Origin: Chamaelirium japonicum
Taxonomy: Eukaryota > Streptophyta > Magnoliopsida > Liliales > Melanthiaceae
Reading direction: 5' to 3'
NCBI GenBank assembly: GCA_947650365.1
Contig: OX393552.1
Location: forward strand, 48,252,999-48,316,998
Length of the DNA stretch: 64,000 nucleotides
Shown here: piece after piece, positions 1-64,000 of the stretch
Numbering within the stretch: the stretch's first letter is position 1
Layout of the letters: every line of letters starts with the position of its first letter
The notes under the pieces: model-generated
What the model was told of the DNA's origin: nothing
What the model saw: the letters and a program-made list of their open reading frames with translations, nothing else
Database searches by the model: none
Translations under genes and position numbers: made by a program

Positions 1-512
1 TATTCCTACGATCTATTCTAATTCATTCGCTCGAATGTATCCATTCTAATTCATTCGTATGATCCATTCTAATTCATTCGTACGATCCATTCTAATTCAT
101 TCGTACGATCCATTCTAATTCATTCGTACAAATGTATCCATTTTAATTCATTCGTACAATGCGTTCTAATCCATCGTACGATCCATTCTAATTCATTCTA
201 ACAAATGTAACCTATCTAATTCATTTGTACGATCCATTCTAATTCTTTCGTACGATCTATTCTAATCCATTCGTACGATCCATTCTAATCCATTCGTACA
301 ATCCTTTCTTATTCATTTGTATGATCCATTCTAATTCATTCGTACGATCCATTCTAATCCAATCATACGATCGATTCTAATCCATTCGTACGATCCATTC
401 TAATCCATTCGTACGATCCATTCTAATTCATTCTAATTCATTCGTACAAATAAATTAGAATGGATACATTCATGCAAATGAATTAGAATGGATTGTACGA
501 ATGAATTAGAAT
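1..512. repeat. Forward block with a short reverse island at its end
   Basis: Forward monomers fill 1-447. The strand switches at a CGTAC dyad near 447 and reverse monomers run about 448-512. The array turns forward again at a GTAACCTTTC 28-mer near 513. A CAATGCGTTC variant lies near 158. Nothing else is seen. Confidence 0.9.
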
Positions 513-1312
513 GTAACCTTTCTAATTCATTTGCATGATCCATTCTAATTCATTCGTACGATCCATTCTAATTCATTCTCACGAATGTAACCTTTCTAAT
601 TCATTCGTACGATCTATTCTAATTCATTCGTACGATCCATTCTAACTCATTCCTACGATCCATTTTAACTCATTCCTATGATCCATTCTAATCCATTCGT
701 ACGATCCAGTCTAATTTATTCGTACGATCCATTCTAATTCATTCGCACGAATGTATCCATTCTAATTCATTCGTACAATCTATTCTAATTCATTCGCACG
801 ATCCATTCTAATTCATTCGTATGATCCATTCTAATTCATTCCTACGATCTATTCTAATTCATTCGCTCGAATGTATCCATTCTAATTCATTCCTATGATC
901 CATTCTAATTCATTCGTACGATCCATTATAATTCATTCGCTTGAATGTATCAATTCTAATTCATTCGTACGATCCATTCTAATTCGTTCATACGTTCCAT
1001 TCTAATTCATTCGTTTGATCCATTCTAATTCATTCGTACGGTCCATTCAAATTCATTCGCATGATCCATTCTAATTCATTCGTACGATCCATTCTAATTC
1101 ATTCTCACGAATATAACCTTTCCAATTCATTTGTATGATCCATTCTAATTCATTCGTACGATCCATTCTAATCCATTCGTACGATCCATTCTAATCCATT
1201 CGTACGATCCATTCTAATTCATTCTCACAAATGTAACCTTTCTAATTCATTTGTACGATCCATTCTAATTCGTTCGTACAATTCATTCGTACGATCCATT
1301 CTATTCATTTGT
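513..1312 (+). repeat. Forward satellite block
   Basis: Unbroken forward monomers with interspersed 28-mers. ACCTTTC-type 28-mers occur near 513, 589, 1117 and 1229, and GCTCGAATGTATCC 28-mers near 870. It ends at a GTAC dyad near 1312. Confidence 0.92.
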
Positions 1313-1944
1313 ACGAATGAATTTGAATGGATCATACAAATGAATTAGAAAGGTTACATTCGTGCGAATGAATTAGAAAGGATACATTTGTGCGAATGAA
1401 TTAGAATAGATCGTACGAATGAATTAGAATGGATCATAGGAATGAATTAGAATGGATCGTGCGAATGAATTAGAATAGATCGTACGAATGAATTAGAATG
1501 GATCATACAAATGAATTAGAAAGGTTACATTTGTGAGAATGAATTAGAATGGATTGTACGAATGAATTAGAATGGATCATACGAATGGATTAGAATGGAT
1601 CGTACGAATGGATTAGTATGGATCGTACGAATGAATTAGAATGGATCATACAAATGAATTAGAATGGATCGAACTAATGAATTAGAATGGATACATTCGA
1701 GCAAATGAATTAGAATAGATCGTAGGAATGAATTAGAATGGATCATACGAATGAATTAGAATGGATCTTGCGAAAGAATTAGAATGAATTAGAATGGATC
1801 GTACGATTCATTCTAATCCATTCGCACGATCCATACAATCCATTCTAATCCATTCGTACGATCCATTCTAATTAGAATAGATCGTAGGAATGAAAAAGAA
1901 TTGATCGTACGAATGAATTAGAATGGATCATGCGAATGAATTAG
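1313..1944. repeat. Reverse block then short alternating blocks
   Basis: Reverse monomers run 1313-1802, with GAAAGGTTACATT 28-mers near 1348 and 1520. A forward piece (about 1803-1871) ends on the dyad ATTCTAATTAGAAT. Reverse units follow to about 1944, where TTAGATCCATTCTA restores forward sense. Confidence 0.88.
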
Positions 1945-2887
1945 ATCCATTCTAATTCATTCGTACGATCCATTCTAATTCATTCATACGATCCATTCTA
2001 ATTCATTTGCACGATCCATTCTAATTCATTCCTATGATCCATTCTAATTCATTCGCTCGAATGTATCCATTCTAATTCATTCGTACGATCCATTCTAATT
2101 CGTTCATACGATCCATTCTAATTCGTTCATACGATCCATTCTAATTCATTCGTCGATCCATTCTAATTCATTCATATGATCCATTCTAATTCATTCGTAC
2201 GATCCATTCTAATGCATTCCTACGATCCATTCTAATTCATTCGCACGAATGTATCCATTCTAATTCATTTGCACGATCCATTCTAATTCATTCGTACGAT
2301 CCATTCTAATTCATTCGTACGATCCATTCTAATTCATTCGCTCGAATGTATCCATTCTAATTCATTCGCACGATCCATACTAATTCATTCGTCCGATCCA
2401 TTCTAATTCATTCGCACGAATGTATCCATTCTTATTCATTCGTATAATCCACTCTAATTCATTCGCACGATCCATTCTAATTCATTCGTATGATCTATTT
2501 TAATTCATTCCTACGATCTATTCTAATTCATTCGCTCGAATGTATCCATTCTAATTCATTCGCATGATTCATTCTAATTCATTCGTACGATCCATTCAAA
2601 TCCATTCTAATTGATTTGTAATTCATTCATACAATCCATTCAGATTCATTCGCACAAATGTACCCATTCAAATTCATTCATATGATCCATTCTAATTAAT
2701 TCGCACGATCCATTCCAATTCAGTCGTATGAATGTATCCATTTTAATTCATTCGTAGGATCCATTCTAATTCATTCGTACGATCTAATTCATTCGTACGA
2801 TCCATTCTAATTCATTCGTACGATCAATTCTAATTCATTCGCACGATCCATTCTAATTCATTCGTACGATCCATTCTAATTGATTCC
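1945..2887 (+). repeat. Forward satellite block
   Basis: Forward monomers throughout. The right part (2,612-2,880) carries rare variants (CAGATTC at 2641, CAGTCGTATG at 2721, GATCTAATTC at 2781) that recur at 18.5 kb and 62.9 kb. Confidence 0.92.
2612..2880 (+). repeat. Segmental duplication family 2, partial copy C
   Basis: Matches copy A at a constant offset of 15,933. Anchors: CAGATTC 2641, GTCGTATG 2723, GATCTAATTC 2781, GATC(A/G)ATTC 2822. It stops where family 1 begins, so two duplication families abut near 2.89 kb. Confidence 0.9.
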
Positions 2888-2902
2888 TATGAATTAGAAT
2901 GG

Positions 2903-5080
2903 ATCGTACGCATGATCCATTCGTACGATCATTTCTTATTCATTCGTACGATCCATTCTAATCCATTCGTACGAATAAATTAGAATGGATACATTCATGC
3001 AAATGAATTAGAATGGATACATTCGTGCGAATGAATTAGAATGGATCGTACGAATGAATTAGAATAGATCGTGCGAATGAATTAGAATGGATAGTGCGAA
3101 TGAATTAGAATGGATCATACGAATGAATTAGAATGGATCATAGGAATGAATTAGAATGGATCGTGCAAATGAATTAGAATGGATACATTTGTGCGAATGA
3201 ATTAGAATAGATTATACGAATGAATTAGAATGGATCGTACGAATGGATTAGAACGCATTGTACGAATGAATTAGAATGGATCATACGAATGGATCATATT
3301 CATTCTAATTTATTCGTACGAATGAATTAGAATGGATCGCACGAATGAATTAGAATGGATCGTACGAATGAATTAGAATGGATCGTACGAATGAATTAGA
3401 ATGGATCGTGCGAATGAATTATAATCGATATATTCGTGCGATTGAATTAGAATGGATCGTGCGAATGAATTAGAATGGATCATACGAATGCGTTCTAATC
3501 CATTCGTACGATCCATTCTAATTCGTTCATATGATCCATTCTAATTCGTTCGTACGATCCATTCTAATTCGTTCGTACGATCCATTCTAATTCATTCGCA
3601 CGATCCATTCTAATTCATTCGCACGATCCATTCTACTTCATTTCTAATTTATTCGTACGATCATACGAATGAATTAGAATGGATCGTACGAACGAATTTA
3701 AATGAATCGTACGATCCATTCTAATTCATTCGTCCGATCCATTCTAATTCATTCGCACGAATGTATCCATTCTATTTCATTTGTACAATCCATTCTAATT
3801 CATTCGCACGATCCATTCTAATTCACTCGTATGATCCATTCTAATTCATTTCTATGATCTATTCTAATTTATTCGCTCGAATGTATCCATTCTAACCTTT
3901 GTAATTCATTCGTACGATCCATTATAATTCATTCTCATTAATGTAACCTTTCTAATTCATTTGTATGATACATTCTAATTCATTCGTACGATCCATTCTA
4001 ATTCATTCGCACGAATGCAACCATTCTAATTCATTCGTACGATCCATTCTAATTCATTCCTACGATCCATTCTAATTCATTCGCACGAATGTATCCATTC
4101 TAATTCATTTGCACGATCCATTCTAATTCATTCCTATGATCCATTCTAATTCGTTCGTACGATCCATTCTAATTCGTTCGTACGATCTATTCTAATTCAT
4201 TCGTACGATCCATTCTAATTCATTCGTACGATCTATTCTAATTCATTCGTATGATCCATTCTAATTCATTCATATGATCTATTCTAATTCATTCGCTCGA
4301 ATGTATCCATTCTAAGTCATTCTAATTCTAATTAGAATAGATCATACGAATGAATTAGAATAGATTGTACGAATGAATTAGAATGGATCGTACGAATGAA
4401 TTAGAATGGACCGTACGAATAAATTAGAATAGATCGTACGAATGAATTATAATTGATACATTCGTACGAATGAATTAGAATGGATCGTGCGAATGAATTA
4501 GAATGGTTACATTCGTGCGAATGAATTAGAATTGATCGTATGAATGAATAAGAATGGATCGTACGAATGAATTAGAATAGATCGTGCGAATGAATTAGAA
4601 TGAATCGTACGAATGCATTAGAATGGATCGTACGAATGAATTAAAATGAATCGTATGAACTAATTCATTCGGATGATTCATTCTAATTCATTCGTACAAT
4701 CCATTCTAATTCATTCGGTGGATCCATTCTCTAATTCATTCGCATGAATATATCCATTCTAATTCATTTGTACGATCCATTCTAATTCATTCGTACAATG
4801 CGTTCTAATCCATTCGTACGATCCATTCTAATTCATTCGCATGATCCATTCTAATTCATTCGTATGATCCATTCTAATTCATTCTCACGAATGTAACCTT
4901 TCTAATTCATTTGTATGATCAATTCTAATTCATTCATACGATCCATTCTAATTCACTCGCCCGAATGTATCCATTCTAATGCATTCGTACGATTCATTCT
5001 AATTCATTCGTACGATCCATTCTAATTCATTCGTACGATCCATTCTAATTCATTCGTTCAATCCATTCTAATTCATTCAT
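2903..5080. repeat. Segmental duplication family 1, copy A
   Basis: Shares rare variants in order with 6365-8515: CATGATCCATTCG (2911 and 6373), GAACGCATTG (3251 and 6713), ATTCTACTTC near 3630 and 7041, ATTGATAC (4452 and 7886), GGTGGATCC (4717 and 8151), AATGCG (4797 and 8231), TTCGTTC (5053 and 8487). The offset starts at 3462, drops to 3388 (74 bp, one 28-mer plus two 23-mers), then becomes 3411 and 3434. All steps are whole monomers. Six or more strand switches are shared. Confidence 0.92.
3689..3795. repeat. Recurrent reverse-to-forward junction, CGAACG type
   Basis: CGAACGAATT at 3689 lies 22 bp (inclusive) before the dyad at 3,710. The same 22 bp is found at 7100-7121, 9544-9565 and 29612-29633. 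The forward arm carries CGTCCGATCC and a 28-mer, as in the GCATTAG type. Confidence 0.9.
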
Positions 5081-5230
5081 ACGATCTAATTCATTCGTAT
5101 GATCCATTCTAATTCATTCGTACGATCGATTCTAATTCATTCGCACGATCCATTCTAATTCATTCGTACGATCCATTCTAATTGATTCGTATGATCCATT
5201 CTAATTCATTCGTACGATCCATTCCAATTT

Positions 5231-6093
5231 AATAGAATGGATCGTGCGAATGAATTAGAATGGATCATAGGAATGAATTAGAATGGATCGTACGAATGAA
5301 TTAGAATGGATCGTGCAAATGAATTAGAATGGATCGTACGAATGAATTAGAATGGATCGTACGAATGAATTAGATCGTACGAATGAATTAGAATGGAGCG
5401 TACGAATGAATTAAAATGGATACATTCATACGACTGAATTAGAATAGATCGTGCGAATTAATTAGAATGGATCGTATGAATGAATTTGAATGGATACATT
5501 TGTGCGAATGAATCTGAATGGATTGTATGAATGAATTACAAATGAATTAGAATGGATTTGAATGGATCGTACGAATGAATTCGAATGGATCATGCGAATG
5601 AATTAGAATAGATACATTCGAGCGAATGAATTAGAATAGATACATTCGAGCGAATGAATTAGAATAGATCGTAGGAATGAATTAGAATGGATCATACGAA
5701 TGAATTAGAATGGATCGTGCGAATGAATTAGAATGGATTGTACGAATGAATTAGAATGGATACATTCGTGCGAATGAATTAGAATTGATCGGACGAATGA
5801 ATTAGTATGGATCGTGCGAATGAATTAGAATGGATACATTCGAGCGAATGAATTAGAATAGATCGTACAAATGAATTAGAATGGATCGTACGAATGAATT
5901 AGAATGGATCGTGCAAATGAATTAGAATGGTTACATTCGTGCGAATGAATTAGAATGGATCGTAGGAAAGCATTAGAATGGATCGTACGAATGAATTAGA
6001 ATGAATTAGAATGGATCATATGAATGAATTAGAATGGTTACATTCGTGCGAATGAATTAGAATGGATCGTACGAATGGATTAGAATGGATCGT
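5231..6093 (-). repeat. Reverse satellite block
   Basis: Reverse monomers. A local copy error repeats GATACATTCGAGCG units around 5586-5650. Rare variants CATACGACTGAATT (near 5429) and GAATCTGAATGG (5510) recur elsewhere (near 11,351; 12,251; 54,185), marking copied stretches. Confidence 0.9.
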
Positions 6094-8090
6094 ATGATCT
6101 ATTCTAATTCATTCGCATGATCCATTCTAATTCATTCGTACGATCCATTCTTATTCATTCATACGATCCATTCGTACGATCCATTCTAATTCATTCACAC
6201 TATCCATTCTAATTCATTCGCACGATCTATTCTAATTCATTCGTACGATCCATTCTAAATCATTCGCACGAATATATCCATTCTAATTCATTTGCATGAA
6301 TGTATCCATTCTAATTTATTCGTACGAATGGATTAGAATGAATCGTACGAATGAATAAGAAATGATCGTACGCATGATCCATTCGTACGATCATTTCTTA
6401 TTCATTCGTACGATCCATTCTAATCCATTCGTACGAATAAATTAGAATGGATACATTCATGCAAATGAATTAGAATGGATACATTCGTGCGAATGAATTA
6501 GAATGGATCGTACGAATGAATTAGAATAGATCGTGCGAATGAATTAGAATGGATAGTGCGAATGAATTAGAATGGATCGTACGAATGAATTAGAATGGAT
6601 CATAGGAATGAATTAGAATGGATCGTGCAAATGAATTAGAATGGATACATTCGTGCGAATGAATTATAATAGATCATACGAATGAATTAGAATGGATCGT
6701 ACGAATGGATTAGAACGCATTGTACGAATGAATTAGAATGGATCGTACGAATGGATCATATTCATTCTAATTTATTCGTATGAATGAATTAGAATGGATT
6801 GTACGAATGAATTAGAATGGATCGTACGAATGAATTAGAATGGATCGTGCGAATGAATTAGAATGGATCATACGAATGCGTTCTAATCCATTCGTACGAT
6901 CCATTCTAATTCGTTCATATGATCCATTCTAATTCGTTCGTACGATCCATTCTAATTCGTTCGTACGATCCATTCTAATTCATTCGCACAATCCATTCTA
7001 ATTCATTCGCACGATCCATTTTAATTCATTCGCACAATCCATTCTACTTCATTTCTAATTTATTCGTACGATCATACGAATGAATTAGAATGGATCGTAC
7101 GAACGAATTAGAATGAATCGTACGATCCATTCTAATTCATTCGTCCGATCCATTCTAATTCATTCGCACGAATGTATCCATTCTAATTCATTCGTACAAT
7201 CCATTCTAATTCATTCGCACGATCCATTCTAATTCATTCGTATGATTCATTCTAATTCATTCCTACAATCTATTCTAATTCATTCGCTCGAATGTATCCA
7301 TTCTAACCTTTCTAATTCATTCGTACGATCCATTCTAATTCATTCTCACGAATGTAACCTTTCTAATTCATTTGTATGATCCATTCTAATTCATTCGTAT
7401 GATCCATTCTAATTCATTCGCACGAATGTAACCATTCTAATTCATTCGTACGATCCATTCTAATTCATTCCTACGATCCATTCTAATTCATTCGCACGAA
7501 TGTATCCATTCTAATTCATTTGCACGATCGATTCTAATTCATTCCTATGATCCATTCTAATTCGTTCGTACGATCCATTCTAATTCGTTCGTACGATTCA
7601 TTCTAATTCATTCGTACGATCCATTCTAATTCATTCGTACGATCTATTCTAATTCATTCGTATGATCCATTCTAATTCATTTCTACGATCTATTCTAATT
7701 CATTCGCTCGAATGTATCCATCATAATTCATTCTAATTCTAATTAGAATAGATCATACGAATGAATTAGAATGGATTGTACGAATGAATTAGAATGGATC
7801 GTACGAATGAATTAGAATGGATCGTATAAATGAATTAGAATTGATCGTACGAATGAATTACAATAGATCGTACGAATGAATTAGAATTGATACATTCGTA
7901 CGAATGAATTAGAATGGATCGTGCGAATGAATTAGAATGGTTACATTCGTGCGAATGAATTAGAATTGATCGTATGAATGAATAAGAATGGATCGTACGA
8001 ATGAATTAGAATAGATTGTGCGAATGAATTAGAATGAATCGTACGAATGCATTAGAATGGATCGTACGAATGAATTAGAATGAATCGTAC
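6094..8090. repeat. Alternating-orientation mosaic, right copy of a large duplication
   Basis: Approximate blocks: forward 6094-6322, reverse 6323-6369, forward 6370-6431, reverse 6432-6876 (20-bp forward island near 6757-6776), forward 6877-7066, reverse 7067-7121, forward 7122-7740, reverse 7741-8090. From 6,365 on this is the same order of blocks as in 2,903-4,659. Confidence 0.88.
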
Positions 8091-8515
8091 GATCTAATTC
8101 ATTCGGATGATTCATTCTAATTCATTCGTACGATCCATTCTAATTCATTCGGTGGATCCATTCTCTAATTCATTCGCATGAATATATCCATTCTAATTCA
8201 TTTGTACGATCCATTCTAATTCATTCGTACAATGCGTTCTAATCCATTCATACGATCCATTCTAATTCATTCACATGATCCATTCTAATTCATTCGTATG
8301 ATCCATTCTAATTTATTCTCACGAATGTAACCTTTCTAATTCATTTGTATGATCCATTCTAATTCATTCGTACGATCCATTCTAATTCATTCGCACGAAT
8401 GTATTCATTCTAATGCATTCATACGATTCATTCTAATTCATTCGTACGATCCATTCTAATTCATTCATACAATCCATTCTAATTCATTCGTTCGATCCAT
8501 TCTAATTCATTCATA
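6365..8515. repeat. Segmental duplication family 1, copy B
   Basis: Partner of 2903-5080. It lacks a 74-bp stretch (in copy A about 3413-3486) and has extra 23-mers, giving the stepped offsets. Differences otherwise are mostly single transitions at CpGs. Confidence 0.92.
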
Positions 8516-8857
8516 CGATCCAGTCTAATTCATTTGTACGATCTATTCTAATTCATTCGCACGATCCATTCTAATTTATTCGTACGATCCATTCTAATTC
8601 ATTCGTACGATCCATTCTTATTCATTCATACGATCAATTCGAATTCATTCGCACAATCTATTCTAATTCATTCGTACGATCCATTCTAATTCATTCGTAT
8701 GATCCATTCTAACTCATTCGGTGGATCCATTCTAATTCATTCGTACGATCCATTCTAATTCAGTCGTACGATCATTCGTACGATCCATTCTAATTCATTC
8801 ATATGATCAATTCTAATTCATTCATACAATCCATTCTAATTCAGTCGTATGAATGTA
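8091..8857 (+). repeat. Forward satellite block
   Basis: Forward monomers. GGTGGATCC units lie at 8151 and 8720. The stretch from TTCGTTCGATCC (8487) to GGTGG (8720) spans exactly 233 bp, as it does in two distant copies near 17.5 and 51.4 kb. Confidence 0.92.
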
Positions 8858-8860
8858 TCG
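8440..8860 (+). repeat. Segmental duplication family 3, partial copy C
   Basis: TTCGTTCGATCC at 8487 and GGTGG at 8720 are 233 bp apart, exactly as in the two other copies. The downstream CGTACGATCATTCGTACGAT deletion unit and CAGTCGTATG are also shared. Confidence 0.9.
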
Positions 8861-9624
8861 TACGAATGAATTAGAATAAATCGTAGGAATGAATTAGAAT
8901 GGATCATACGAATGAATTAGAATGGATCGTGCGAATGAATTAGAATGGATTGTACGAATAAATTAGAATGGATACATTCGTGCGAATGAATTAAAATGGA
9001 TCGTACAAATGAATTAGAATGGATCGTAGGAATGAATTAGAATGGATCGTACGAATGAATTAGAATGGTTACATTCGTGCGAATGAATTAGAATGGATCA
9101 TAGGAATGAATTAGAACGGATCGTGCGAATAAATTAGAAATGATCGTACGAATGAATTAGAATGGATCGTACGAATGAATTAGAATGGATCATACAAATG
9201 AATTAGAAAGGATACATTTGTGCGAATGAATTAGAATGGATCGTACGAATGAATTAGAATGGATACATTTGTGCGAATGAATTAGAATGGATCGTGCGAA
9301 TGAATTAAAATGGATCGTACGAATGAATTATAATGTATAGTACGAATGAATTAGAATGGATCTTGCGATTGAATTAGAATAGATGCGAAAGAATTAGAAT
9401 GGATCGTACGAATAAATTAGAATGGATGCGAATGAATTAGAATGGATAGTGCGAATGAATTAGAATGGATCATACGAATGAATTAGAATGGATCCACCGA
9501 ATGAGTTAGAATGGATCATACGAATGAATTAGAATGGATCGTACGAACGAATTAGAATGAATCGTACGATCCATTCTAATTCATTCGTCCGATCCATTCT
9601 AATTCATTCGCACGAATGTATCCA
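8858..9624. repeat. Reverse block followed by a short forward piece
   Basis: Reverse monomers fill 8858-9565. A copy of the recurrent AGAATGAATCGTAC junction turns the array forward for about 60 bp (9566-9624). That piece ends abruptly in TATCCATTAGAAAGG without a clean dyad. Confidence 0.88.
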
Positions 9625-10692
9625 TTAGAAAGGATCGTACCAATGAATTAGAATGGATATATTCGTGCGAATGAATTAGAATGGATCGTACGAATGAATT
9701 AGACTGAATCGTACGAATAAATTAGAAAGGATACATTCATGCAAATGAATTAGAATGTGCGAATGAATTAGAATGGATCGTAGGAATGAATTAGAATGGA
9801 TCGTACGAATGAATTAGAATGGATAAATTGTGCGAATGAATTAGAATGGATCTTACGAATGAATTAGAATGAATCATACGAATAAATTAGAATGGATCAT
9901 ACGAATAAATTAGAATACATAATGTGAATGAATTAGAATGGATCATACGTTTGAATTAGATTGGATTGTGCAAATGAATTAGAATGGATACATTCGTGAG
10001 AATGAATTAGAATGGATCGTACGAATGGATTAGAATGGATCGTACAAATGAATTTGAATGGATCGTAGGAATGAATTAGAATAGATCATACGAATGAATT
10101 AGAATGGATCGTACGAATGAATTTGAATGGATTGTACGAATGAATTAGAATGGATCGTACGAATGAATTAGAATGGATACATTTGTGCGAATGAATTAGA
10201 ATGGATCGTACGAATGAATTAGAATGGATCGTGCGAATGAATTAGAATGGTTACATTCGTGTGAATGAATTAGAATGGATACATTCGTGCAAATGAACTA
10301 GAATGGATCGTACGAATGAATTAGAATGGATCGTACGAATGAATTAGAATGGATACATTTGTGCGAATGAATTAGAATGGATCGTACGAATGAATTAGAA
10401 TGGATCGTGCACGAATAGATACATTCGTGCGAATGAATTAGAATGGATCATAGGAATGAATTAGAATGGATCGTACGAATGAATTAGAATGGTTACATTT
10501 GAGCGAATGAATTAGAATGGATCGTACGAATGAATTAGAATGGATCGTACGAATGAATTAGAATGGTTACATTTGTGCGAATAAATTAGAATGGATCGTA
10601 CGAATGAATTAGAATGGATACATTCGAGCGAATGAATTAGAATGGATCGTATGAATAAATTAGAATGGATCGTATGAATGAATTTGAATGCA
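9625..10692 (-). repeat. Reverse satellite block
   Basis: Reverse monomers with many GGATACATT and GGTTACATT 28-mers. The open frame read from the minus strand at 10512-10697 is explained by the alternation of 23- and 28-mers and has no gene-like content. Confidence 0.92.
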
Positions 10693-11117
10693 TACATTTT
10701 AATTCATTTGTACGATCCATTCTAATTCATTCGCACGAATGTATCCATTCTAATTCGTTCGTACGATCCATTCTAATTCATTCGCACGATCCATTCTAAT
10801 TCATTCGTACGATCCATTCTTATTCATTCATGCGATCCATTCTAATTCATTCGCACGATCCATTCTAATTCATTCGCACGATCCATTCTAATTCATTCGT
10901 ATGATCCATTCTAATTCATTCGTATGATTCATTTTAATTCATTCGTATGATCCATTCTAACTCATTCGCCCAAATGTATCCTTTCTAATTCATTCGTACG
11001 ATCCATTCAAATTCATTCGTACGATCCATTCAAATTCATTCGCATGATCCCTACTAATTCATTCGTACGATCCATTCTAATTCATTCGCACGAATGTAAC
11101 CATTCTAATTCATTTGT
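10693..11117 (+). repeat. Forward satellite block
   Basis: Forward monomers between two reverse blocks. It contains CAAATTCATTCG substitutions near 11,009-11,040 and a GTAACC 28-mer near 11,097. The right switch is at ATTTGTATGAATGAATT. Confidence 0.9.
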
Positions 11118-44215: not shown

Positions 44216-44323
44216 ATTAGAATAGATACATTTGTGCGAATGAATTAGATTGCATCGTACGAATGAATTTGAATGCATTCCAATTCATTCGTACGATCTA
44301 ATTCTTATTCATTCGCACGATCC

Positions 44324-51740: not shown

Positions 51741-52258
51741 GTCGTACGAATGAATTAGAATTGATCTAATTCATTCGTACAATCCATTCTAATTCATTTG
51801 CACGATCCATTCTAATTCATTCGTCTGATCCATTCTAATTCATTCCTACGATCTATTCTAATTCATTCGCTCGAATGTATCCATTCTAATTTATTCGTTC
51901 GATCCATTCTAATCCATTCGTACGATCCATTCAAATTCATTCCTATGATCCATTCTAATTCATTCGTACGATCCATTCTAATTCATTCCTACGATCCATT
52001 CTAATTCATTCGCACGAATGTAACCATTCTAATTCATTCGCACGAATGTATCCATTCTAATCCATTCGTACGATCCATTCTAATTTATTCGTACAAATGT
52101 ATCCATTCTAATTCATTCGCTCGAATGTATCCATTCTAATTCATTCCCACGAATGTAACCTTTATAAGTCATTTGTATGATCCATTCTAATTCATTCGTA
52201 CGATCCATTCTAATTCATTCGCACGAATATATTTCGTATTCATTCGCGTGATCCATTC
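51208..52258 (+). repeat. Forward satellite block
   Basis: Forward monomers with one reverse islet of about 17 bp near 51,746-51,762. GGTGG lies at 51,617. Near 52,228-52,256 the sequence is scrambled (ATATATTTCGTATTCATTCGCG) before the switch. Confidence 0.9.
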
Positions 52259-52531
52259 GTGCGAATGAATTAGAATGGATTAGAATGGATCGTACGAATG
52301 AATTAGAATGGATCATTCGTTCGATCCATTCTAATTCATTCACACGTTCCATTCTAATTAGAATGGATACATTCGTGCGAATGAATTAGAATGGATCGTA
52401 GGAATGAATTAGAATGGATCGCATGAATGAATTAGATTAGAATGGATCGTGCGAATGAATTAGAATGGATCGTTTCGAATGGATTAGAATGGATCGTACG
52501 AATGAATTAGAATGAATTAGAATTCATTCCT

Positions 52532-53395
52532 ACGAACTATTCTAATTCATTCGCACGATCCATTCTAATTCATTCGTACGATCCATTTTAATTCATTCGC
52601 ACGAATGTATCCATTCTAATTCATTTGTACAATCCATTCTAATTCATTCGCACGATCCATTCTAATTCATTCGTATGATCCATTCTAATTCATTCCTACG
52701 ATCTATTCTAATTCATTCGCTCGAATGTATCCATTCTAATTCATTCGTTCGATCCATTCTAATTCATTCGTACGATCCATTCAAATTCATTCGCATGATC
52801 CATTCTAATTCATTCGTACGATCCATTCTAATTCATTCTCACGAATGTAACCTTTCTAATTCATTTGTATGATCCATTCTAATTCATTCGTACGATCCAT
52901 TCTAATCCATTCGTATGATCCATTCTGATCCATTCGTACGATCCATTCTAATTCATTCGTACGATCCATTCTAATTCATTCGCACGAATGTATCCATTGT
53001 AATTCATTCGTACGATCCATTCTAATTCGTTCATACGATCCATTCTAATTCATTCGTACGATCCATTCTAAAATGAGTTAGAATGGATCATACGAATGAA
53101 TTAGAATGGATCGTACGAATGAATTAAAATGGATTGTGCGAATGAATTAGAATGGATCGTATGAATGAATAAGAATGGATCGTACGAATGAATTAGAATG
53201 GATCGTGCGAATGAATTAGAATGAATCATACGAATGCATTAGAATGGATCGTACGAATGAATTAGAATGAATCGTACGATCCATTCTAATTTATTCGTCC
53301 GATCCATTCTAATTCATTCGTGTGAAAGAAATAGAATGGATACATTCGAGCGAATGAATTAGAACGTATTGTATGAATGAATTAGAATGGATCAT
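52532..53395. repeat. Segmental duplication family 6, copy B
   Basis: Partner of 49860-50700. Its left edge coincides with a GAATTC strand switch at about 52,521. The two copies carry repeat-derived open frames with identical 65-residue translations, which shows how similar they are over 200 bp. Confidence 0.92.
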
Positions 53396-53633
53396 GTGAA
53401 TGAATTAAAATGGATCATACAAATGAATTAGAATGGATCGTACGAACGAATTAGAATAGATCGTACGAACGAATTAGAATGGATCGTACGAACGAATTAG
53501 AATGGATCGTACGAATGAATTAGATTGAATTAGAATGGATTGTACGAATGAATTAGAATGGATCATGCGAATGAATTAGAATAGATCGTACGAATGAATT
53601 AGAATGGATCATGCGAACGAATTAGAATGGATC

Positions 53634-53910
53634 GAACGAATGAATTAGAATGGATCGTACGAATGAATTAGAATGGATTGTGCGAATGAATTAGAATGGA
53701 TCGTATGAATAAATTAGAATGGATCATACGAATGAATTAGAATGGATCGTGCGAATGAATTAGAATGAATCATACGAATGCATTAGAATGGATCGTACGA
53801 ATGAATTAGAATGAATCGTATGATCCATTCTAATTCATTCGTCCGATCCATTCTAATTCATTCGCACGAATGTATCCATTCTAATTCATTCGTACAATCC
53901 ATTCTAAATC
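53634..53910. repeat. Junction cassette with long left arm, copy 3
   Basis: Reverse arm of 185 bp to the dyad at 53,819, forward arm with CGTCCGATCC and a 28-mer. Here the dyad has decayed to CGTATG by one CpG transition. Confidence 0.91.
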
Positions 53911-54839
53911 ATTCGCATGATCCATTCTAATTCATTCGTATGATTACTTCTAATTCATTCCTACGCTCTATTCTAATTCATTCGCTCGATGGATTAGAAT
54001 GGATCGTACGAATGAATTAGAATGGATCATACGAATAAATTAGAATGGATACATTCGAGCGAATGAATTAGAATGGATCGTACGAATGAATTAGAATGGA
54101 TCATATGAATGAATTAGAATAGATCGTGCGAATTAATTAGAATGGATCGTACGAATGAATTTGAATGGATACATTTGTGCGAATGAATCTGAATGGATTG
54201 TATGAATGAAATACAATGGATCGTACGAATGAATTAGAATGGATCGTACGAATAAATTAGAATGGATCGTGCGAATGAATTAGAATGGATTGTGCGAATG
54301 AATTAGAATGGATCGTATGAATGAATAAGAACCATTCTAATTCATTCGCACGAATTTATCCATTCTACAAATGAATTAGAATGGATCGTACAAATGAATT
54401 AGAATGGATCGTACGAAATGGATCGTACGAATGGACTAGAATGGATGGTACGAATTAGAATGGATCGTACGAATGAATTAGAATGGATCATAGGAATGAA
54501 TTAGAATGGATCGTACGAATGGATTAGAATGCATTGTACGAATGAATTAGAATGGTTACATTCGTGCGAATGAATTAGAATGGATCGTGCGAATGAATTA
54601 GAATGGATAGTGCGAATGAATTAGAATGGATCGTACGAATGAATTAGAATGGATACATTCATGCGAATGAATTAGAATGGATCGTACGAATGAATTAGAA
54701 TGGATCGTACAAATGGATTAGAATGGATCTTACGAATAGATTAGAATGGATCGTACGAATGAATTAGAATGGATACATTCGTGTGAATGAATTAGAATGG
54801 ATCGTACGAATGAATTAGAATGGATCGTACGAATGAATT

Positions 54840-55077
54840 AGAATGGATACATTTGTGCGAATTAATTAGAATGGATCGTACGAATGAATTAGAATGGATC
54901 GTGCGAATGAATTAGAATTGATCATACGAATGAATTAGAATGGATCGTACGAATGAATTAGAATGGATACATTCATGCGAATGAATTAGAATGGATCGTA
55001 CGATTCATTCTAATTCATTCATACGATCCATTCTAATGCATTCGTACGAGCGAATGAATTAGAATGGATCGTACGAA
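54840..55077. repeat. Segmental duplication family 9, copy B
   Basis: Partner of 38985-39300. It is truncated at a further strand switch (GTACGAATGTAACCATTCTACGTGCG near 55,073-55,095). Confidence 0.87.
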
Positions 55078-56276
55078 TGTAACCATTCTACGTGCGATCC
55101 ATTCTAATTCGTTCATACGATCCATTCTAATTCGTTCGTACGATCCATTCTAATTCGTTCGTACGATCCATTCTAATTCATTCGCATGAATATATCCATT
55201 CTAGTTCATTCGTACGCTCCATTCTAATTCATTCGTACGCTCTATTCTTATTCATAGCACAAATGTATCCATTCTAATTCATTCGTACGATCCATTCTAA
55301 TTCATTCGCACGATCGATTCTAATTCATTCGTATGATCCATTCTAATTCATTCATACGATCCATTCTAATTCTTTCGTACGATCCATTCTAATTCATTCG
55401 CACGATCAATTCTAATTCATTCGTACAATCCATTCAAATTCATTCGTACGATCCATTCTAATTCATTCGTACGATCCATTCTAATTCATTCGCACGAATG
55501 TATCCATTCTAATTCATTTGTACAATCCATTCTAATTCATTCGCACGATCCATTCTAATTCATTCGTATGATCCATTCTAATTCATTCCTATGATCTATT
55601 CTAATTCATTCGCTCGAATGTATCCATTCTAATTCATTCGTTCGATCCATTCTAAGAATTAGAATGTATCCATTCTAATTCATTTGCACGATCCATTCTA
55701 ATTCATTCCTATGATCCATTCTAATTCATTCGTACGATCCATTCTAATTCATTCGCTCGAATGTATCCATTCTAATTCATTCGTACGATCCATTCTAATT
55801 CGTTCGTACGATCCATTCTAATTCGTTCGTACGATCCATTCTAATTCGTTCGTACGATCCATTCTAATTCATTCGTACGATGCATTCTAATGCATTCGTA
55901 CGATCCATTCTAATTCATTCGTACGATCCATTCTAATTCATTCGTACGATCCACTCTAATTCATTCGTACAATCCATTCTAATTCATTCGCACGATCCAT
56001 TCTAATTCATTCGCACGATCCATTCTAATTCATTCGTATGATCCATTCTAATTCATTCCTACGATCTATTCTAATTCATTCGCTCGAATGTATCCATTCT
56101 AATTTATTCGTTCGATCCATTCTAATCCATTCGTACGATCCATTCTAATTCACTCCTATGATCCATTCTAATTCATTCGTACGATCCATTCTAATTCATT
56201 AGCTCGAATGTATCCATTCTAATTTATTCGTATGATTCATTCTAATTCATTCGTACGATCCATTCTAATCCATCTA
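55078..56276 (+). repeat. Forward satellite block
   Basis: Forward monomers. A reverse fragment of about 11 bp (AAGAATTAGAATG) lies near 55,654. From about 55,795 it matches the 21.5-22.1 kb region. It ends at CCATCTAGCGAATG near 56,277. Confidence 0.91.
55795..56276 (+). repeat. Segmental duplication family 8, copy B
   Basis: Partner of 21510-22080. It has three fewer 23-mers and ends at the CCATCTAGCGAATG strand switch, which copy A does not share, so it is cut there. Confidence 0.88.
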
Positions 56277-57101
56277 GCGAATGAATTAGAATAGATCGTA
56301 GGAATGAATTAGAATGAATCATACGAATGAATTGGACTGGATAGTGCAAATGAATTAGAATGGATCGTACGAATGAATTAGAATGGATTGTAAGTACGAA
56401 TGAATTAGAATTGATCGAACGAATGGATTAGAATGGATCATACGAATGGATTAGAATGGATCGTACGAATGGATTAGAATGCATTGTACGAATGAATTAG
56501 AATAGATACATTTGTGCGAATGAATTAGATTGCATCGTACGAATATTTGAATGGATCGGACAAATGAATTAGAATGGATCGTCCGAATGAATAAGAATGA
56601 ATCGTACGAATGCATTAGAATGGATACATTCGTGCGAATGAATTAGAATGGATACATTCGAGCGAATGAATTAGAATGGATCAGAATGGATACATGCGTG
56701 CGAATAAATTAGAATGGATCGTACGAACGAATTAGAATGGATCGTACGAATGAATTAGAATGGATACATTCGAGCGAATGAATTAGAATGGATCGTACAA
56801 ATGAATTAGAATGGATCATAGGAATGAATTAGAATGGATCGTACGAATGAATTAGAATGGATCGTATGAACGAATTAGAATGGATACATTCATGCGAATG
56901 AATTAGAATGGATCGTACAAATGAATTAGAATTGATCGTACGAATGAATTAGAATAGATCGTACGAATGAATTAGAATTGATACATTTGTACGAATGAAT
57001 TAGAATGGATCGTGCGAATGGATTAGAATGGATCATACGAATGAATTAGAATGGATCGTACGAATGGATTAGAATGGATCGTAGGAATGGATTAGAACGA
57101 A
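56277..57101 (-). repeat. Reverse satellite block
   Basis: Reverse monomers with a hybrid unit GGATTGTAAGTACG near 56,386. Part of it (about 56,680-56,720) shares the ACATGCGTGCG variant with 35.47 kb. Confidence 0.9.
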
Positions 57102-57510
57102 TCCATTCTAATTCATTCGTACGATCCATTCTAATTCATTCGCTCGAATGTATCCATTCTTGTTCATTCATACAATCCATTCTAATTCATTCACACAATC
57201 CATTCTAATTCATTCGTATGATCAATTCTAATTCATTCCTACGATCTATTCTAATTCATTCGCATGATCCATTCTAGTTCATTCGTACGATCCATTAGAA
57301 TGGATCGTACAAACGAATTAGAATGGATCGTACGAACGAATTAGAATGGATCATTCTAATCCATTCGTGAGAATGAATTAGAATGGATCCATTCTAGTTC
57401 ATTTGTACGAATGTATCCAATCTAATTCATTCACACGATCCATTCTAATTCGTTCATACGATCCATTCTAATTCGTTCGTACGATCCAATCTAATTCATT
57501 CGCACGAAAG
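57102..57510. repeat. Short-block mosaic
   Basis: Forward 57102-57295, reverse 57296-57349, forward 57350-57368, reverse 57369-57388, forward 57389-57510 (approximate). Two blocks are shorter than one monomer. The switch near 57,389 is on GGATCC. Confidence 0.83.
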
Positions 57511-58398
57511 TATCATACGAATGAATTAGAATGGATCATGCGAATGAATTAAAATGGATCGTACAAATGAATTAGAATGGATCGTGCGAATGAATTAGAA
57601 TGTATCGTACGAACGAATTAGAATGGATCGTACGAATGGATTAGAATGAATCGTACGAATGAATTAGAATGGATCATGCGAATGAATTAGAATGGATTGT
57701 ACGAATGAATTAGAATGGATCGAACGAATGAATTAGAATGGATACATTCATGCAAATGAATTATAATGGATCGTACGAATGAATTAGAATGGATCATACG
57801 AATGAATTAGAATGGATCGTGCGAACGAATTAGAATGGATCGTACGAACGAATTAGAATGGATCGTATGAACGAATTAGAATGGATCGTACGAACGAATT
57901 AGAATGGATTATGCGAATGAATTAGAATGGATCGTATGAACGAATTAGAATGGATCGTACGAACGAATTAGAGTAGATACATTCGAGCGAATGAATTAGA
58001 ATGGATCGTACGAATGAATTAGAATGGATCGTGCGAATGAATTAGAATCGATCGTACGAATGAATTAGAATGGATCGTACGAATGGATTAGAATGGATCG
58101 TGTGAATGAATTAGAATGGATCGTATGAATTAATTAGAATGGATCATAGGAATGGATTAGAATGGATCGTGCAAATGAATTAGAATGGATACATTCGTGC
58201 GAATGAATTAGAATTGATACATTTGTGCGAATGAATAAGAATGGATCGTACGAATGAATTAGAATGGATACATTTGTGCGAATGAATTAGAATGGATCGT
58301 ACGAATGAATTAGAATGAATCATACGAATGAATTAGAATGGATCATACGAATGAATTAGAATACATCATGTGAATGAATTAGAATGGATCATACGTTT
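57511..58398 (-). repeat. Reverse satellite block
   Basis: Reverse monomers rich in GAACGAATTAG units (about 57,600-57,970). An ATCATACGTTTGA variant near 58,388 also appears near 9,950 (ATCATACGTTTGAATT), together with ACATCATGTG or ACATAATGTG units just before it. Confidence 0.9.
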
Positions 58399-58537
58399 GA
58401 TCCATTCTAATTCATTCGTACGATCCATTCTAATGAATTAGAATGGATCCATTCTAATTCATTTGCACGAATGAATTAGAATGGATACATTCGAGCGAAT
58501 GAATTAGAATGGATCGTACGAATGAATTAGAATGGAT
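58399..58537. repeat. Short-block mosaic
   Basis: Forward 58399-58433, reverse 58434-58449, forward 58450-58470, reverse 58471-58537 (approximate). The switch near 58,450 is on GGATCC. It leads into a duplication shared with 48.8 kb. Confidence 0.83.
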
Positions 58538-58736
58538 TCGTTCTAATCCATTCGTACGATCCATTCTAATCCATTCGTACGATCCATTCTAATCCATTCG
58601 TACGATCCATTCTAATTCATTCGCACGATCCATTATAATTCATTCGTACAAATGTATCCATTCTAATTCATTCGTACAATCCATTCTAATTCATTCGTAC
58701 GATCCATTCTAATTCATTCGCACAAATGTATCCTTT
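58469..58736. repeat. Segmental duplication family 7, copy B
   Basis: Partner of 48828-49095. It is preceded by a cluster of sub-monomer flips at 58,399-58,470 that copy A lacks. Confidence 0.9.
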
Positions 58737-59324
58737 CTAATTCATTTGTATGATCCATTCTAATTCATTCGTACGATCCATTCTAATTCATTCGTACGAT
58801 CATTTCTAATTTATTCGCACGATCCGTTCTAATTTATTCCTATGATCCATTCTAATTCATTCGCACGAATGTAACAATTCTAATTCATTCGTACGATCCA
58901 TTCTAATTCATTCGCACGATCCATTCTAATTCATTTGTATGATCCATTCTAATTCATTCTCACAAATGTAACCTTTCTAATTCATTTGTACGATCCATTC
59001 TAATTCATTCGTACGATCCATTCTAATCCTTTCGTACGATCCATTCTAATCCATTCGTACGATCCATTCTAATTCATTCGCACGAATGTAACCATTCTTA
59101 TTCATTCGTACGATCCATTCTAATTCATTCCTTTGATCCATTCTAATTCATTCGCACGAATGTATCCATTCTAATTCATTTGCACGATCCATTCTAATTC
59201 ATTCCTATGATCCATTCTAATTCATTCGTACGATGCATTCTAATTCATTCGTACGATCCATTCTAATTCATTCGCACGATCCGTTCTAATTCATTCCTAT
59301 GATCCATTCTAATTCATTTGCACG
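58538..59324 (+). repeat. Forward satellite block
   Basis: Forward monomers. Between about 58,866 and 59,093 it shows the same order of GTAACC and ACCTTTC 28-mers and TAATCC 23-mers as the 171-bp higher-order repeats near 61.3 kb. Confidence 0.91.
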
Positions 59325-60895
59325 AATGAATTAGAATGGATCATAGGATTGAATTAGAATGGATCGTGCAAATGAATTAGAATGGATACATTCGTGCGAA
59401 TGAATTAGAATGGATCATAGAAATGAATTAGAATGGATCGTACGAATGAATTAGAATGGTTACATTCGTGCGAATGAATTAGAATGGATCGTACGAATGG
59501 ATTAGAATGGATCGTACGAATGGATTAGAATGGATCGTACAAATGAATTAGAATGGTTACATTTGTGAGAATGAATTAGAATGGATCGTACGAATGGATT
59601 AGAATGGATCGTACGAATGGATTAGAATGGATTGTACGAATGAATTAGAATGGATCATACAAATGAATTAGAAAGGTTACATTCGTGAGAATGAATTAGA
59701 ATGGATCGTACGAATGAATTAGAATAGAACATATGAATGGATTAGAATGGATCGTACGAATGGATTAGAATGGATCGTACGAATGAATTAGAATGGATCA
59801 TACAAATGAATTAGAAAGGTTACATTCGTGAGAATGAATTAGAATGGATCGTACGAATGAATTAGAATGGATCATGCGAATGAATTTGAATGGATCGTAC
59901 GAATGAATAAGAATGGATCGTACGAATGAATTAGAATGGATCATGTGAATGAATTAGAATGGATACATTTTTGTGAATGAATTTGAATGGATCGTACGAA
60001 TGGATCGTACGAATGAATTAGAATGAATCGTACGAACGAATTAGGATGGATCGTACGAATGTATTAGAATGGATCGTACGAATGATTTAGAATGGATCAT
60101 AGGAATGAATAAGAATAGATCGTGCAAATGAATTAGAATGGATACATTCGTGCGAATGAATTAGAATGGATCGTAGGAATGAATTAGAATGGATCGTACG
60201 AATGAATTAGAATGATTACATTCGTGTGAAAGAATTAGAATCGATCGTACGAATGGATTAGAATGGATCGTACGAATGGATTAGAATGGATCGTACGAAT
60301 GAATTAGAATGGATCGTACAAATGAATTAGAAAGGTTATATTTGTGATAATGAATTAGAATGGATCGTACGAATGAATTAGAATAGATCGTACAAATGAA
60401 TTAGAATGGATCGTACGAATGAATTAGAATGGATACATTCGTGCGAATGAATTAGAATGGATCGTACAAATGAATTAGAATGGATCATATGAATGAATTA
60501 GAATGGATCGTACGAATGGATTAGAATGTATTGTGCGAATGAATTAGAATGGATCGTATGAATGAATAAGAATGGATCGTACGAATGAATTAGAATGGAT
60601 CGTACGAATGAATTAGAATGGATTGTACAAATGAATTATAAAGGTTACATTTGTGAGAATGAATTAGAATGGATCGTACGAATGGATTAGAATGGATCGT
60701 ACGAATGGATTATAATGGATCGTACGAATGAATTAGAATGGATCATACAAATGAATTAGAAACGTTACATTCGTGAGAATGAATTAGAATGGATCGTACG
60801 AATGAATTAGAATGGATCATGCGAATGAATTTGAATGGATCGTACGCATGAATAAGAATAGATCGTAGGAATGAATTACAATGGATCGTACGAAT
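59325..60895 (-). repeat. Reverse satellite block with stepped 28-mer spacing
   Basis: Reverse monomers. GGTTAC 28-mers start at 59458, 59555, 59675 and 59818, with gaps of 97, 120 and 143 bp. These equal 3, 4 and 5 x 23 plus 28, so each successive copy gains one 23-mer. GGATTAGAATGG runs fill the gaps. Confidence 0.92.
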
Positions 60896-61728
60896 GTATC
60901 CATTCTAATTCATTCGTACGATCCATTCTAGTTCATTCGCTCGAATGTATCCTTTGTAATTCATTTGTATGATCCATTCTAATTCATTCGTACGATCCAT
61001 TCTAATCCATTCGTACGATCCATTCTAATCCATTCGTACGATCCATTCTAATTCATTCGTATGAATGTATCCATTCTAATTATTCGTACGATCTAGTCTA
61101 ATTCGTTTGTACGATCCATTCTAATTCATTCGCACAAATGTATCCATTCAAATTCATTCGTACGAACTATTCTAATTCATTTGTATGATCCATTCTAATT
61201 CATTCGTACGATCCATTCTAATCCATTCGTACGATCCATTCTAATCCATTCGTACGATCCATTCTAATTCATTCGCACGAATGTAACCATTCTAATTCAT
61301 TCGTATGATCCATTCTAATTCATTCTCACAAATGTAACCTTTCTATTTTATTTGTACGATCCATTCTAATTCATTCGTACGATCCATTCTAATCCATTCG
61401 TACGATCTATTCTAATCCATTCGTACGATCCATTCTAATTCATTCGCACGAATGTAACCATTCTAATTCATTCGTACGATCCATTCTAATTCATTCTCAC
61501 AAATGTAACCTTTCTAATTCATTTGTATGATCCATTCTAATTTATTCGTACGATCCATTCTAATCCATTCGAACGATCCATTCTAATCCATTCGTACGAT
61601 CCATTCTAATTCATTCGCACGAATGTAACCATTCTAATTCATTCGTACGATCCATTCTAATTCATTCTCATAAATGTAACCTTTCTAATTCATTTGTACG
61701 ATCCATTCTAATTCATTCGTACGTACGA
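60896..61728 (+). repeat. Forward satellite block holding 171-bp higher-order repeats
   Basis: Forward monomers. ACCTTTC 28-mers (GTAACCT) lie at 61334, 61505 and 61676, exactly 171 bp apart. Earlier related spacings are 193 and 194 bp (60947, 61140, 61334). The block ends on a doubled CGTACGTACG near 61,719. Confidence 0.92.
61240..61700 (+). repeat. 171-bp higher-order repeat, about 2.7 copies
   Basis: Each period holds five 23-mers and two 28-mers (5 x 23 + 2 x 28 = 171). The order is GTAACCATTC 28-mer, 23-mer, TCACAAATGTAACCTTTC 28-mer, ATTTGTA 23-mer, then 23-mers of the TAATCCATTCG type. Adjacent periods agree closely, differing mostly at single bases. The match to the alpha-satellite monomer length is coincidence; the sequence is unrelated. 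Confidence 0.88.
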
Positions 61729-62351
61729 ATGAATTAGAATGGATACATTCGAGCGAATGAATTAGAATGGATCGTACAAATGGATTAGAATGGATCGTAC
61801 GAATGGATTAGAATGGATCGTACGAACGAATTAGAATGGATCGTACGAATGAATTAGAATGGATCATAGGAATAAATTAGAATGGATCGTGCAAATGAAT
61901 TAGAATGGATACATTCATGCGAATGAATTAGAATGGATCATACGAATGAATTAGAATAGATCCATTCTAATTCATTCGCACAATCCATTCTAATTCATTC
62001 GCACAATCCATTCTAATTCATTCGCACAATCCATTCTAATTCATTCGTACGATCCATTCTAATTCATTCGTATGATCCATTCTAACTAATTTTAGAATGG
62101 ATCGTACGAACGAATTAGAATGGATCGTATGAACGAATTAGAATGGATCGTACGAATGAATTAGAATAGATACATTCGAGCGAATGAATTAGAATGGATC
62201 ATGCGAATGAATTAGAATGGATAGTACGAATGAATTAGAATGGATCGTACGAATGAATTAGAATGGATACATTCATGCAAATGAATTAGAATGGATCGTA
62301 CGAATGAATTAGAATGGATCATACGAATGAATTAGAATGGATCGTACGAAT
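61729..62351. repeat. Alternating blocks
   Basis: Reverse 61729-61957, forward 61958-62090, reverse 62091-62351 (approximate). Three consecutive CGCACAATCC units lie near 61,976-62,031. The right switch CGAATGCCTTTCTAATTC near 62,350 is irregular. Confidence 0.88.
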
Positions 62352-63410
62352 GCCTTTCTAATTCATTTGTACGATCCATTCTAATTCATTCGTACGATCC
62401 ATTCTAATCCATTCGTACGATCCATTCTAATCCATTTGTACGATCCATTCTAATTCATTCGTACAATCCATTCTTATTCATTCATACGATCCATTCTAAT
62501 TCATTCGCACAATCCATTCTAATTCATTCGTATGATCCATTCTAATTCATTCGTATGATCCATTCTAACTCATTCCTATGATCCATTCTAATCCATTCGT
62601 ACGATCCATTCCAATCCATTCGTACGATCCATTCTAATCCATTCGTACGATCCATTCTAATTCATTAGTACGATCCATTCTAATTCATTCATACGAATGT
62701 AACGTTTCTAATTCATTTGTATGATCCATTATAATTCGTTCGTATGATCCATTATAATTCATTCGTACGATCCATTCTAATTCATTCACACAAATGTAAC
62801 CATTCTAATTCATTCATACGATTCATTCTAATTGATTCGTATGAGCTATTCTAATTCATTCGTATGATCCATTCTAATTCATTCGTACGATCCATTGTAT
62901 TTCATTCATACAATCCATTCAGATTCATTCGCACAAATGTATCAATTCAAATTCATTCGTACGATCCATTCTAATTAATTCGCACGATCCATTCTAATTC
63001 AGTCGTATGAATGTATCCATTTTAATTCATTCGTACGATCCATTCTAATTCATTCGTACGATCTAATTCATTCGTACGATCCATTCTAATTCATTCGTAC
63101 GATCGATTCTAATTCATTCGCACGATCCATTCTAATTCATTCATACGATCCACTCTAATTCATTCGTATGATCCATTCTAATTTATTCGTTCAAATATAT
63201 CCATTCTAATTCATTCGTACGATCCATTCTAATTCATTCGCACGATCCATTCTAATTCATTCGCACGAAAGTATCCATTCTAATTCATTTGCACGATCCA
63301 TTCTAATTCATTCGTACGATTCATTCTTATTCATTCATACAATCCATTCTAATTCATTCGCACAATCCATTCTAATTCATTCGTACGATCCATTCTAATT
63401 CATTTGTATG
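62352..63410 (+). repeat. Forward satellite block
   Basis: Forward monomers. From about 62,786 it is the partner of 18.44 kb onward. The right switch near 63,410 lies inside that duplication. Confidence 0.92.
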
Positions 63411-63891
63411 AATGAATTAGAATGGATCGTACGAATGGATTAGAATGGATCGTACGAATAAATTAGAATGGATCGTACGAACGAATTAGAATGGATCGTA
63501 TGAACGAATTATAATGGATAATATGAATGAATTAGAATGGATACATTCGAGCGAATGAATTAGAATGGATCGTACGAATGAATTAGAATGGATTGTACGA
63601 ATGAATTAGAATGGATCGTACGAATAAATTAGAATGGATAGTGCGAATGAATTAGAATGGATCGTATGAATGAATTAGAATGGATTGTACGAATGAATTA
63701 GAATAGATCGTGCGAATGAATTACAATGGATCGTACGAAAGAATTAGAATGAATCGTACGAATGAATTAGAATGGATCATACGAATGAATTAGAATCGAT
63801 CGTGTGAATGAAATAGAATGGATCGTACGAATAAATTAGAATGGATACATTTGTGCGATGAATAAGAATGGAGCGTACGAATGAACTAGAA
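62786..63891. repeat. Segmental duplication family 2, copy B
   Basis: Partner of 18440-19545. Just beyond the last anchor it lacks one 23-mer relative to copy A (one GAATGAATTAG unit between AATGGAGCG and GAACTAG). Confidence 0.93.
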
Positions 63892-64000
63892 TGGATACAT
63901 TCGTGCGAATGAATTAGAATAGATCATATGAAAGAATTAGAATGGATCGTGTGAATGAATTAGAATGAATCGTGCGAATGAATTAAAATGGACCGTACGA
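63411..64000 (-). repeat. Reverse satellite block running off the window
   Basis: Reverse monomers to the end of the window. The first 480 bp match 19.06-19.55 kb. The last 100 bp also resemble 22.87-22.97 kb (GAACTAGAATGG, then GATCATATGAAAGAATTAG). Confidence 0.92.

Follow-up and report, generated by a model that had tools for sequence, protein, structure and literature searches.

The Locus and Its Satellite

The stretch of DNA described here, in the following called the window, comprises 64 kb of contig C4 (positions 48,252,999 to 48,316,998) of Chamaelirium japonicum, the name under which Chionographis japonica is listed by NCBI, and is occupied by a satellite array of the Chio1/Chio2 type in which both orientations are mixed. 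A period of 23 bp was found across the whole window together with a variant of 28 bp, longer by 5 bp; phase shifts of -1 and -4 are the most frequent (436 and 391 of 1,014), sum to these 5 bp and lie at one part of the monomer. The window monomer carries TTCGTACGA with the 8-bp dyad TCGTACGA, as in the published Chio motif, and the published one-base substitution was recognized in the window by eye only.

C. japonica is holocentric, and its CENH3-associated centromeric satellite Chio1/Chio2 has units of 23 and 28 bp (PMC10264360; here and below the literature is cited supplements aside). The published assembly of this species, with 12 scaffolds of 1090.73 Mb in total and an N50 of 81.11 Mb (PMC10264360), fits the one analysed here (1.519 Gb, or 1,518.7 Mb, in 3,253 contigs), in which C1 to C12 (137 to 70 Mb) add up to 1,090,673,439 bp and C8 measures 81,106,678 bp; the published primary contigs amount to 1,526.1 Mb (PMC10264360), a small difference from the 1,518.7 Mb. 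As the units, TTCGTACGA, the mixed orientation and the assembly all agree, the identity of the window satellite with Chio1/Chio2 of C. japonica can be regarded as settled. Enrichment of CENH3 is reported for Chio arrays generally (PMC10264360).

Samples of 10 kb taken along C4 consisted of at least 98% satellite at 47.20, 47.70, 48.15, 48.21-48.25, 48.32-48.36 and 48.45 Mb, were partly satellite at 46.70 Mb (30%) and 47.95 Mb (9%), and were not satellite at 45.70, 48.70, 49.20, 50.20 and 52.20 Mb; at 57.83 Mb satellite was found again. The window belongs to a single centromere unit of about 1.7 to 3 Mb, its edges being placed by sampling, and a unit of this length together with the satellite at 57.83 Mb fits the published spacing near 10 Mb.

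Density and Strand Balance of Orientation Switches

The window was segmented by orientation using a two-strand circular Viterbi model of the 23-mer GATCCATTCTAATTCATTCGTAC under varied switch penalties. In the 64 kb, 131, 129 and 127 switches were called at penalties of -12, -14 and -16, respectively; laxer penalties gave 159 switches at -9 and 987, which are noise, at -6. At a penalty of -12 the plus strand accounted for 34,041 bp (53.2%) and the minus strand for 29,959 bp (46.8%); the 66 reverse blocks measured 11-2,124 bp, and the longest forward block 2,769 bp. The mean block length was about 0.5 kb, and 33 of the 128 intervals between switches were shorter than 100 bp. No switch was called when all reverse blocks of the window were turned over to give a head-to-tail control, nor in three simulated head-to-tail arrays with substitution set to 10, 15 and 20%, respectively, and segmentation and controls together rule out an ordinary head-to-tail satellite with one orientation over tens of kilobases. 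Two-strand scoring of this kind had been proposed in the initial annotation of the sequence, whose counts by hand (about 135 flips, 68 reverse blocks and a 53/47% strand ratio) come close to ours. The mixture noticed there is correct and, in outline, already known, since Chio arrays of forward and reverse orientation were described as mixed (PMC10264360) and their orientation has been called frequently alternating (PMC12722358).

In locally sampled satellite, a non-random sample mostly from the same centromere unit, 435 switches were counted in 244.6 kb (1.78 per kb). Genome-wide, the 16-mer CCATTCTAATTCATTC was found 3,228,999 times in forward and 3,182,370 times in reverse orientation (6,411,369 in total, 50.4% forward) and the exact 46-bp dimer 104,647 times forward and 104,273 times reverse, a balance that is by itself no proof of local mixing. 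Extrapolation from the density of the 16-mer in the window (1,198 per 64 kb) puts the satellite at about 342 Mb or 22.5% of the assembly; this may be high, because the main repeat cluster was published as 16.11% of the genome (PMC10264360), and the estimate falls if other arrays are less diverged.

At this density a switch is present in 61% of 500-nt and 84% of 1,000-nt pieces of the array. That transcripts could fold on themselves into double-stranded RNA, as the initial annotation had it, is borne out by computation only: the predicted folding energy of 600-nt RNAs, given as a median per 100 nt, was -47.8 kcal/mol in 16 pieces with a switch, compared with -17.5 in nine pieces without a switch and -16.7 in 25 pieces of the head-to-tail control.

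Position of the Switches Within the Monomer

Each switch was assigned to one of 23 registers, an assignment that is independent of how ambiguous bases are attributed. Register 18, which is centred on TCGTACGA, held 45 of the 129 switches but only 4.2% of 1,800 artificial random joins; this control is slightly uneven, with register 13 taking 8.6% of the joins and 8.5% of the real switches. When junctions were grouped into families by single linkage at 90% identity, the one level at which registers were tallied, register 18 was found in 19 of 72 families (binomial P of about 1e-10 against 4.2%). The longer the longest run that both strands share in a register, the more switches that register tends to hold (rank correlation over 23 registers, rho 0.67, P 5e-4). 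The mean overlap at a switch was 2.18 bp versus 0.67 bp in 1,350 control joins, and overlaps of at least 8 bp were seen at 12.4% of the switches versus 0.4% of the control joins. Switching at palindromes had been named at the outset as one possible process, and the preference for TCGTACGA fits it.

A 26-bp palindromic forward-to-reverse junction at the dyad was found at 4,185 places genome-wide, or about 12 per Mb of the estimated 342 Mb, and four times in about 240 kb of local satellite; several separate regions of C1 (1.6-30.2 Mb) are among the matches listed. Switching at the dyad is thus not peculiar to the window.

Agreement with the consensus, measured in the 2,043 Chio1-type monomers of the window, is 89.4% at the eight dyad positions and 95.8% at the other 15. 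The dyad is intact in 792 monomers (38.8%), versus 39.6% expected for independent sites, and 39 of the 1,251 altered 8-mers are still palindromic; the commonest alterations are C-to-T or G-to-A at a CpG site and T-to-C at the centre. Selection keeping the dyad or hairpin in each monomer was considered and left no sign in the window. The weaker conservation of the dyad relative to the other monomer positions argues against strong selection for a hairpin per monomer, a question left open by the published account (PMC10264360), and any role of such hairpins at the centromere would be conjectural. Directly beside the dyad lies the 5-bp insertion of the 28-bp unit, which starts as the reverse strand does (CGAATG) and might have originated as a tiny strand switch.

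Inheritance of the Switches

Most switches are old and were inherited by copying of the array. This can be followed best in the long stretch of the window that has a collinear copy 60-69 kb downstream (Table 1). The two are linked by chained matches with identities of 92% or more (mean 95.3% when gaps are included); the aligned segments, picked by high identity, comprise 36,815 columns with 97.06% identity without gaps and 1,084 substitutions. The stretch holds 100 switches, 27 of which fall outside or at the edge of the aligned segments and were left out of the test. By script, 70 switches were called in both copies, three in the window only and two in the downstream copy only. As judged by eye, the three window-only calls are the same junctions shifted by 28, 23, and 46 bp (about whole units) and the two downstream-only calls are the partners of the first two of them, so that all 73 tested switches are conserved. 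The absence of gains and losses among 73 switches over 1,084 substitutions corresponds to at most about three events at 95% confidence (Poisson), and at such a rate about one switch per 500 bp is unlikely to have been built in place while the monomers stayed so alike. If a steady clock is assumed, copying of switch-bearing pieces would be the simpler account. Inherited switches argue against both assembly error and frequent ongoing inversion.

Copies of switch-bearing pieces were also found at other scales. The 512-bp stretch at the start of the window is mostly or wholly matched at 39 other places with 91-98% identity on nine contigs including C4, with 40 of 3,800 first-look candidates scored. 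The largest junction family (single linkage) has 18 members in the window, of mixed registers, and includes the switch at 7115, whose 44-bp haplotype was found in 2,478 exact copies genome-wide (1,304 forward and 1,174 reverse); C1, C2, C3, and C4 are among the matches listed. On C3 (2.187-2.317 Mb) three copies of this haplotype reappear 6,096 bp later at unchanged spacings, apparently a recent higher-order repeat. Probes of 200 bp centred on the 129 switches, together with 129 switch-free control probes, were searched against the other sampled loci; 117 of the switch probes had a copy at 90% identity or more and 100 at 95% or more, leaving 12 that had none at 90%.

Table 1. Features of the window, with positions counted from its first base; a dot stands where no strand is given.
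Feature	Position	Strand	Details
Chio1/Chio2-type satellite array, both orientations mixed	1..64000	.	23-bp units and 28-bp variants with a 5-bp insertion
512-bp stretch with widespread copies	2..513	+	switch at 449 inside, switch at 513 at its end
Direct duplication	3076..8668	+	3076-5229 and 6464-8668, 91%; switches in matching places, e.g., 3663/7074, 3698/7115, 4659/8092
Stretch with collinear copy 60-69 kb downstream	5650..57083	+	10 aligned segments, 36.8 kb
Reverse-to-forward switch at 7115	7075..7160	.	TCGTACGA register; in largest junction family
Large palindrome	34184..43592	.	9.4 kb, nested outer and inner arms
Palindrome, outer arms	34184-37595 and 40160-43592		92.9% over 3.4 kb; 96.2% within a 2.1-kb part
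Palindrome, inner arms	37801-38734 and 39266-40199		96.3%
Forward-to-reverse switch at 38978	38960..39000	.	TCGTACGA register; near palindrome centre
7.1-kb stretch with copy 9.3 kb downstream (sampled locus L013)	56873..64000	+	99.7% identical; 14 switches inside

Origin of the Switches

The arrangement of the window probably results from rare palindrome-aided strand switching that was followed by layered segmental amplification, a reading to which we attach moderate confidence. Switches would have arisen rarely, when synthesis or end-joining moved to another satellite copy of opposite orientation. The partner would usually have been a non-neighbouring copy, because the two arms at a junction resemble each other no more than arms taken from different junctions of the same register (median identity 0.817 for both with arms of 120 bp). 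As the molecular step we infer microhomology-aided template switching or end-joining, for which passage would be easiest where both strands read alike, above all at the 8-bp dyad TCGTACGA. The switch-bearing pieces would later have been multiplied by segmental duplication at scales of about 0.5, 3.4, 9, and 60-69 kb and would have reached other chromosomes as well, and it is this multiplication and spread that would have led to the high switch density and the near balance of strands.

Several observations weigh against this reading. Overlap with the consensus is absent at 52 of the 129 junctions, and five switches fall in register 6, in which the strands share no base, so that the dyad explains only a part of the switches. 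The 90% identity used to define junction families is reached by 5% of unrelated in-phase pairs, and the number of families depends on the threshold, with 21 at 85% (near background) and 55 to 100 at 88-93%. Conservation of the switches was established from one copy pair and in segments of high identity, which favours shared switches. Switch-free probes have close copies more often than switch probes (128 of 129 at 90% and 123 of 129 at 95%), which indicates duplication of the entire array, with junctions recovered less frequently than plain array. Old fold-backs, moreover, would lose the similarity of their arms and become indistinguishable from switching to a distant copy.

This last point concerns fold-back (snap-back) inverted duplication at TCGTACGA hairpins, by which a new reverse block would be a copy of the adjacent forward block and which would likewise account for the preference of switches for the dyad. 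Arms across the same junction were compared with arms of different junctions in the same register, excluding junctions with shorter blocks. The median identities of own and cross arms were 0.750 and 0.767 for arms of 60 bp (92 junctions), 0.817 and 0.817 for 120 bp (75 junctions), and 0.825 and 0.825 for 200 bp (55 junctions), and register-18 junctions exceeded the 95% point of the control in 0 of 33, 0 of 27, and 1 of 25 cases, respectively. Fold-back replication, one of the processes offered in the initial annotation, is therefore unlikely as a general route; the part of that proposal which may stand concerns the large palindrome, one possible fold-back case, whose arms are 93-96% identical and whose centre lies close to a dyad-register switch. 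Most of its right outer arm is lacking from the downstream chain, in which 1.9 kb take the place of the 4.6 kb that include the left arm; the inverted duplication, or its loss, may therefore be about as old as the 60-69 kb duplication. Re-insertion in either orientation of satellite pieces that had left the array as extrachromosomal circles, which was proposed for the spread of Chio arrays (PMC10264360), would yield just such unrelated arms as well as near strand balance, but taken alone it gives no reason to expect the dyad to be preferred, unless microhomology is used for insertion, and we consider it very unlikely as the source of the switches.

Repeated inversion of short pieces in place, which had been claimed from the sequence at first, is suggested by the many short blocks, among them the intervals below 100 bp. 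A clean inversion leaves the same register at both ends, and the comparison of end registers thus tests this process. Equal end registers were found in 15 of the 128 neighbouring pairs, compared with 19.5 +/- 3.3 expected, and in only 1 of 33 blocks shorter than 100 bp. With end registers at chance and no turnover among the 73 tested switches the claim did not hold up, and inversion in place has a slim chance of having shaped the window. Least credible of all is that the switches are assembly errors. They are known here from the assembled sequence, but switch-bearing stretches recur in copies that are 2-9% diverged and lie on several contigs, and these conserved junctions largely answer the worry about artefacts. 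The published assembly was moreover built from HiFi libraries of 14-26 kb mean length at 58.5x coverage (PMC10264360), and with reads of this length a single one should span dozens of switches.

Other Sequences in and Beside the Array

Two Ty3-like retroelements with long open reading frames, recognized by eye, lie inside or beside the satellite unit on C4, one at about 47.95 Mb (sampled locus L018, 1-9129) and the other at about 48.38 Mb (L057, 9035-10000, together with L058). Within the array at a further sampled locus (L023, 7776-7961) there is an insert of non-satellite sequence, about 186 bp long, in which a GAGGT run and a repeated GAGAGAAGGAGATCC motif occur. Many unplaced contigs carry cox1 or matK, which implies that the 428 Mb not placed in chromosomes include organelle sequence. 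The matK protein at sampled locus L055 has a monocot look.

Comparison With Known Systems

The window shares with the published Chio1/Chio2 of C. japonica the assembly totals, monomers, 8-bp dyad, higher-order repeats and strand mixture, and also the arrangement in megabase units about 10 Mb apart (PMC10264360). The text of that account as consulted here gives no switch density, no register of the switch points and no comparison of switches from copy to copy (PMC10264360). Neither the anatomy of the switch points nor the inheritance of switches was found in the texts consulted or among the matches listed for the literature, supplements aside, and we make no claim that they are unpublished; a literal text search of the literature for five pieces of the monomer gave no match.

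Inverted subarrays on the kilobase scale are likewise known from the macro-dyad satellites of Tribolium madens (PMC13081366), to which the blocks of up to 2.8 kb and the palindrome of 9.4 kb correspond here. The T. madens satellite is abundant, probably (peri)centromeric, and has conserved inversion sites of three types with thousands of copies each, mostly with two subarrays per array (PMC13081366). The window differs from it by its 26 direction-register combinations within 64 kb and by a mean block length of about 0.5 kb. A small set of highly conserved inversion-site types as in Tribolium was looked for and not found in the window, in which 13 registers are occupied per direction and junctions fall into many families.

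The Chama satellite of Chamaelirium luteum has the 9-bp TTCGTACGA in common with Chio, a motif that was suggested to be capable of forming hairpins, of causing breaks and of promoting the ectopic repair by which repeats are moved (PMC12722358); the dyad preference in the window is consistent with this suggestion. Unlike Chio, Chama has a 60-bp monomer and consistently oriented arrays (PMC12722358), so that the dyad alone does not appear to force switching. The texts of both accounts leave open how the alternating orientation originated and how centromere units spread along the chromosomes (PMC10264360; PMC12722358). As a tentative and rather speculative answer, TCGTACGA, a dyad common to Chio and the monocentric sister genus, might be a strand-switch site at which switching, together with layered duplication, built the strand-balanced arrays; switch-bearing pieces might then have moved between centromere units and chromosomes, their junctions being heritable markers of the spread towards holocentricity. 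Since the junctions are easily recognized, stable over about 3% divergence (in one copy pair) and sometimes present in thousands of copies, they could serve as markers for which centromere unit seeded which, and the dyad preference provides a concrete mechanism that is open to testing. Relative to the text of PMC12722358, the new part of this proposal is the role of the dyad as a switch site and the use of junctions as markers.

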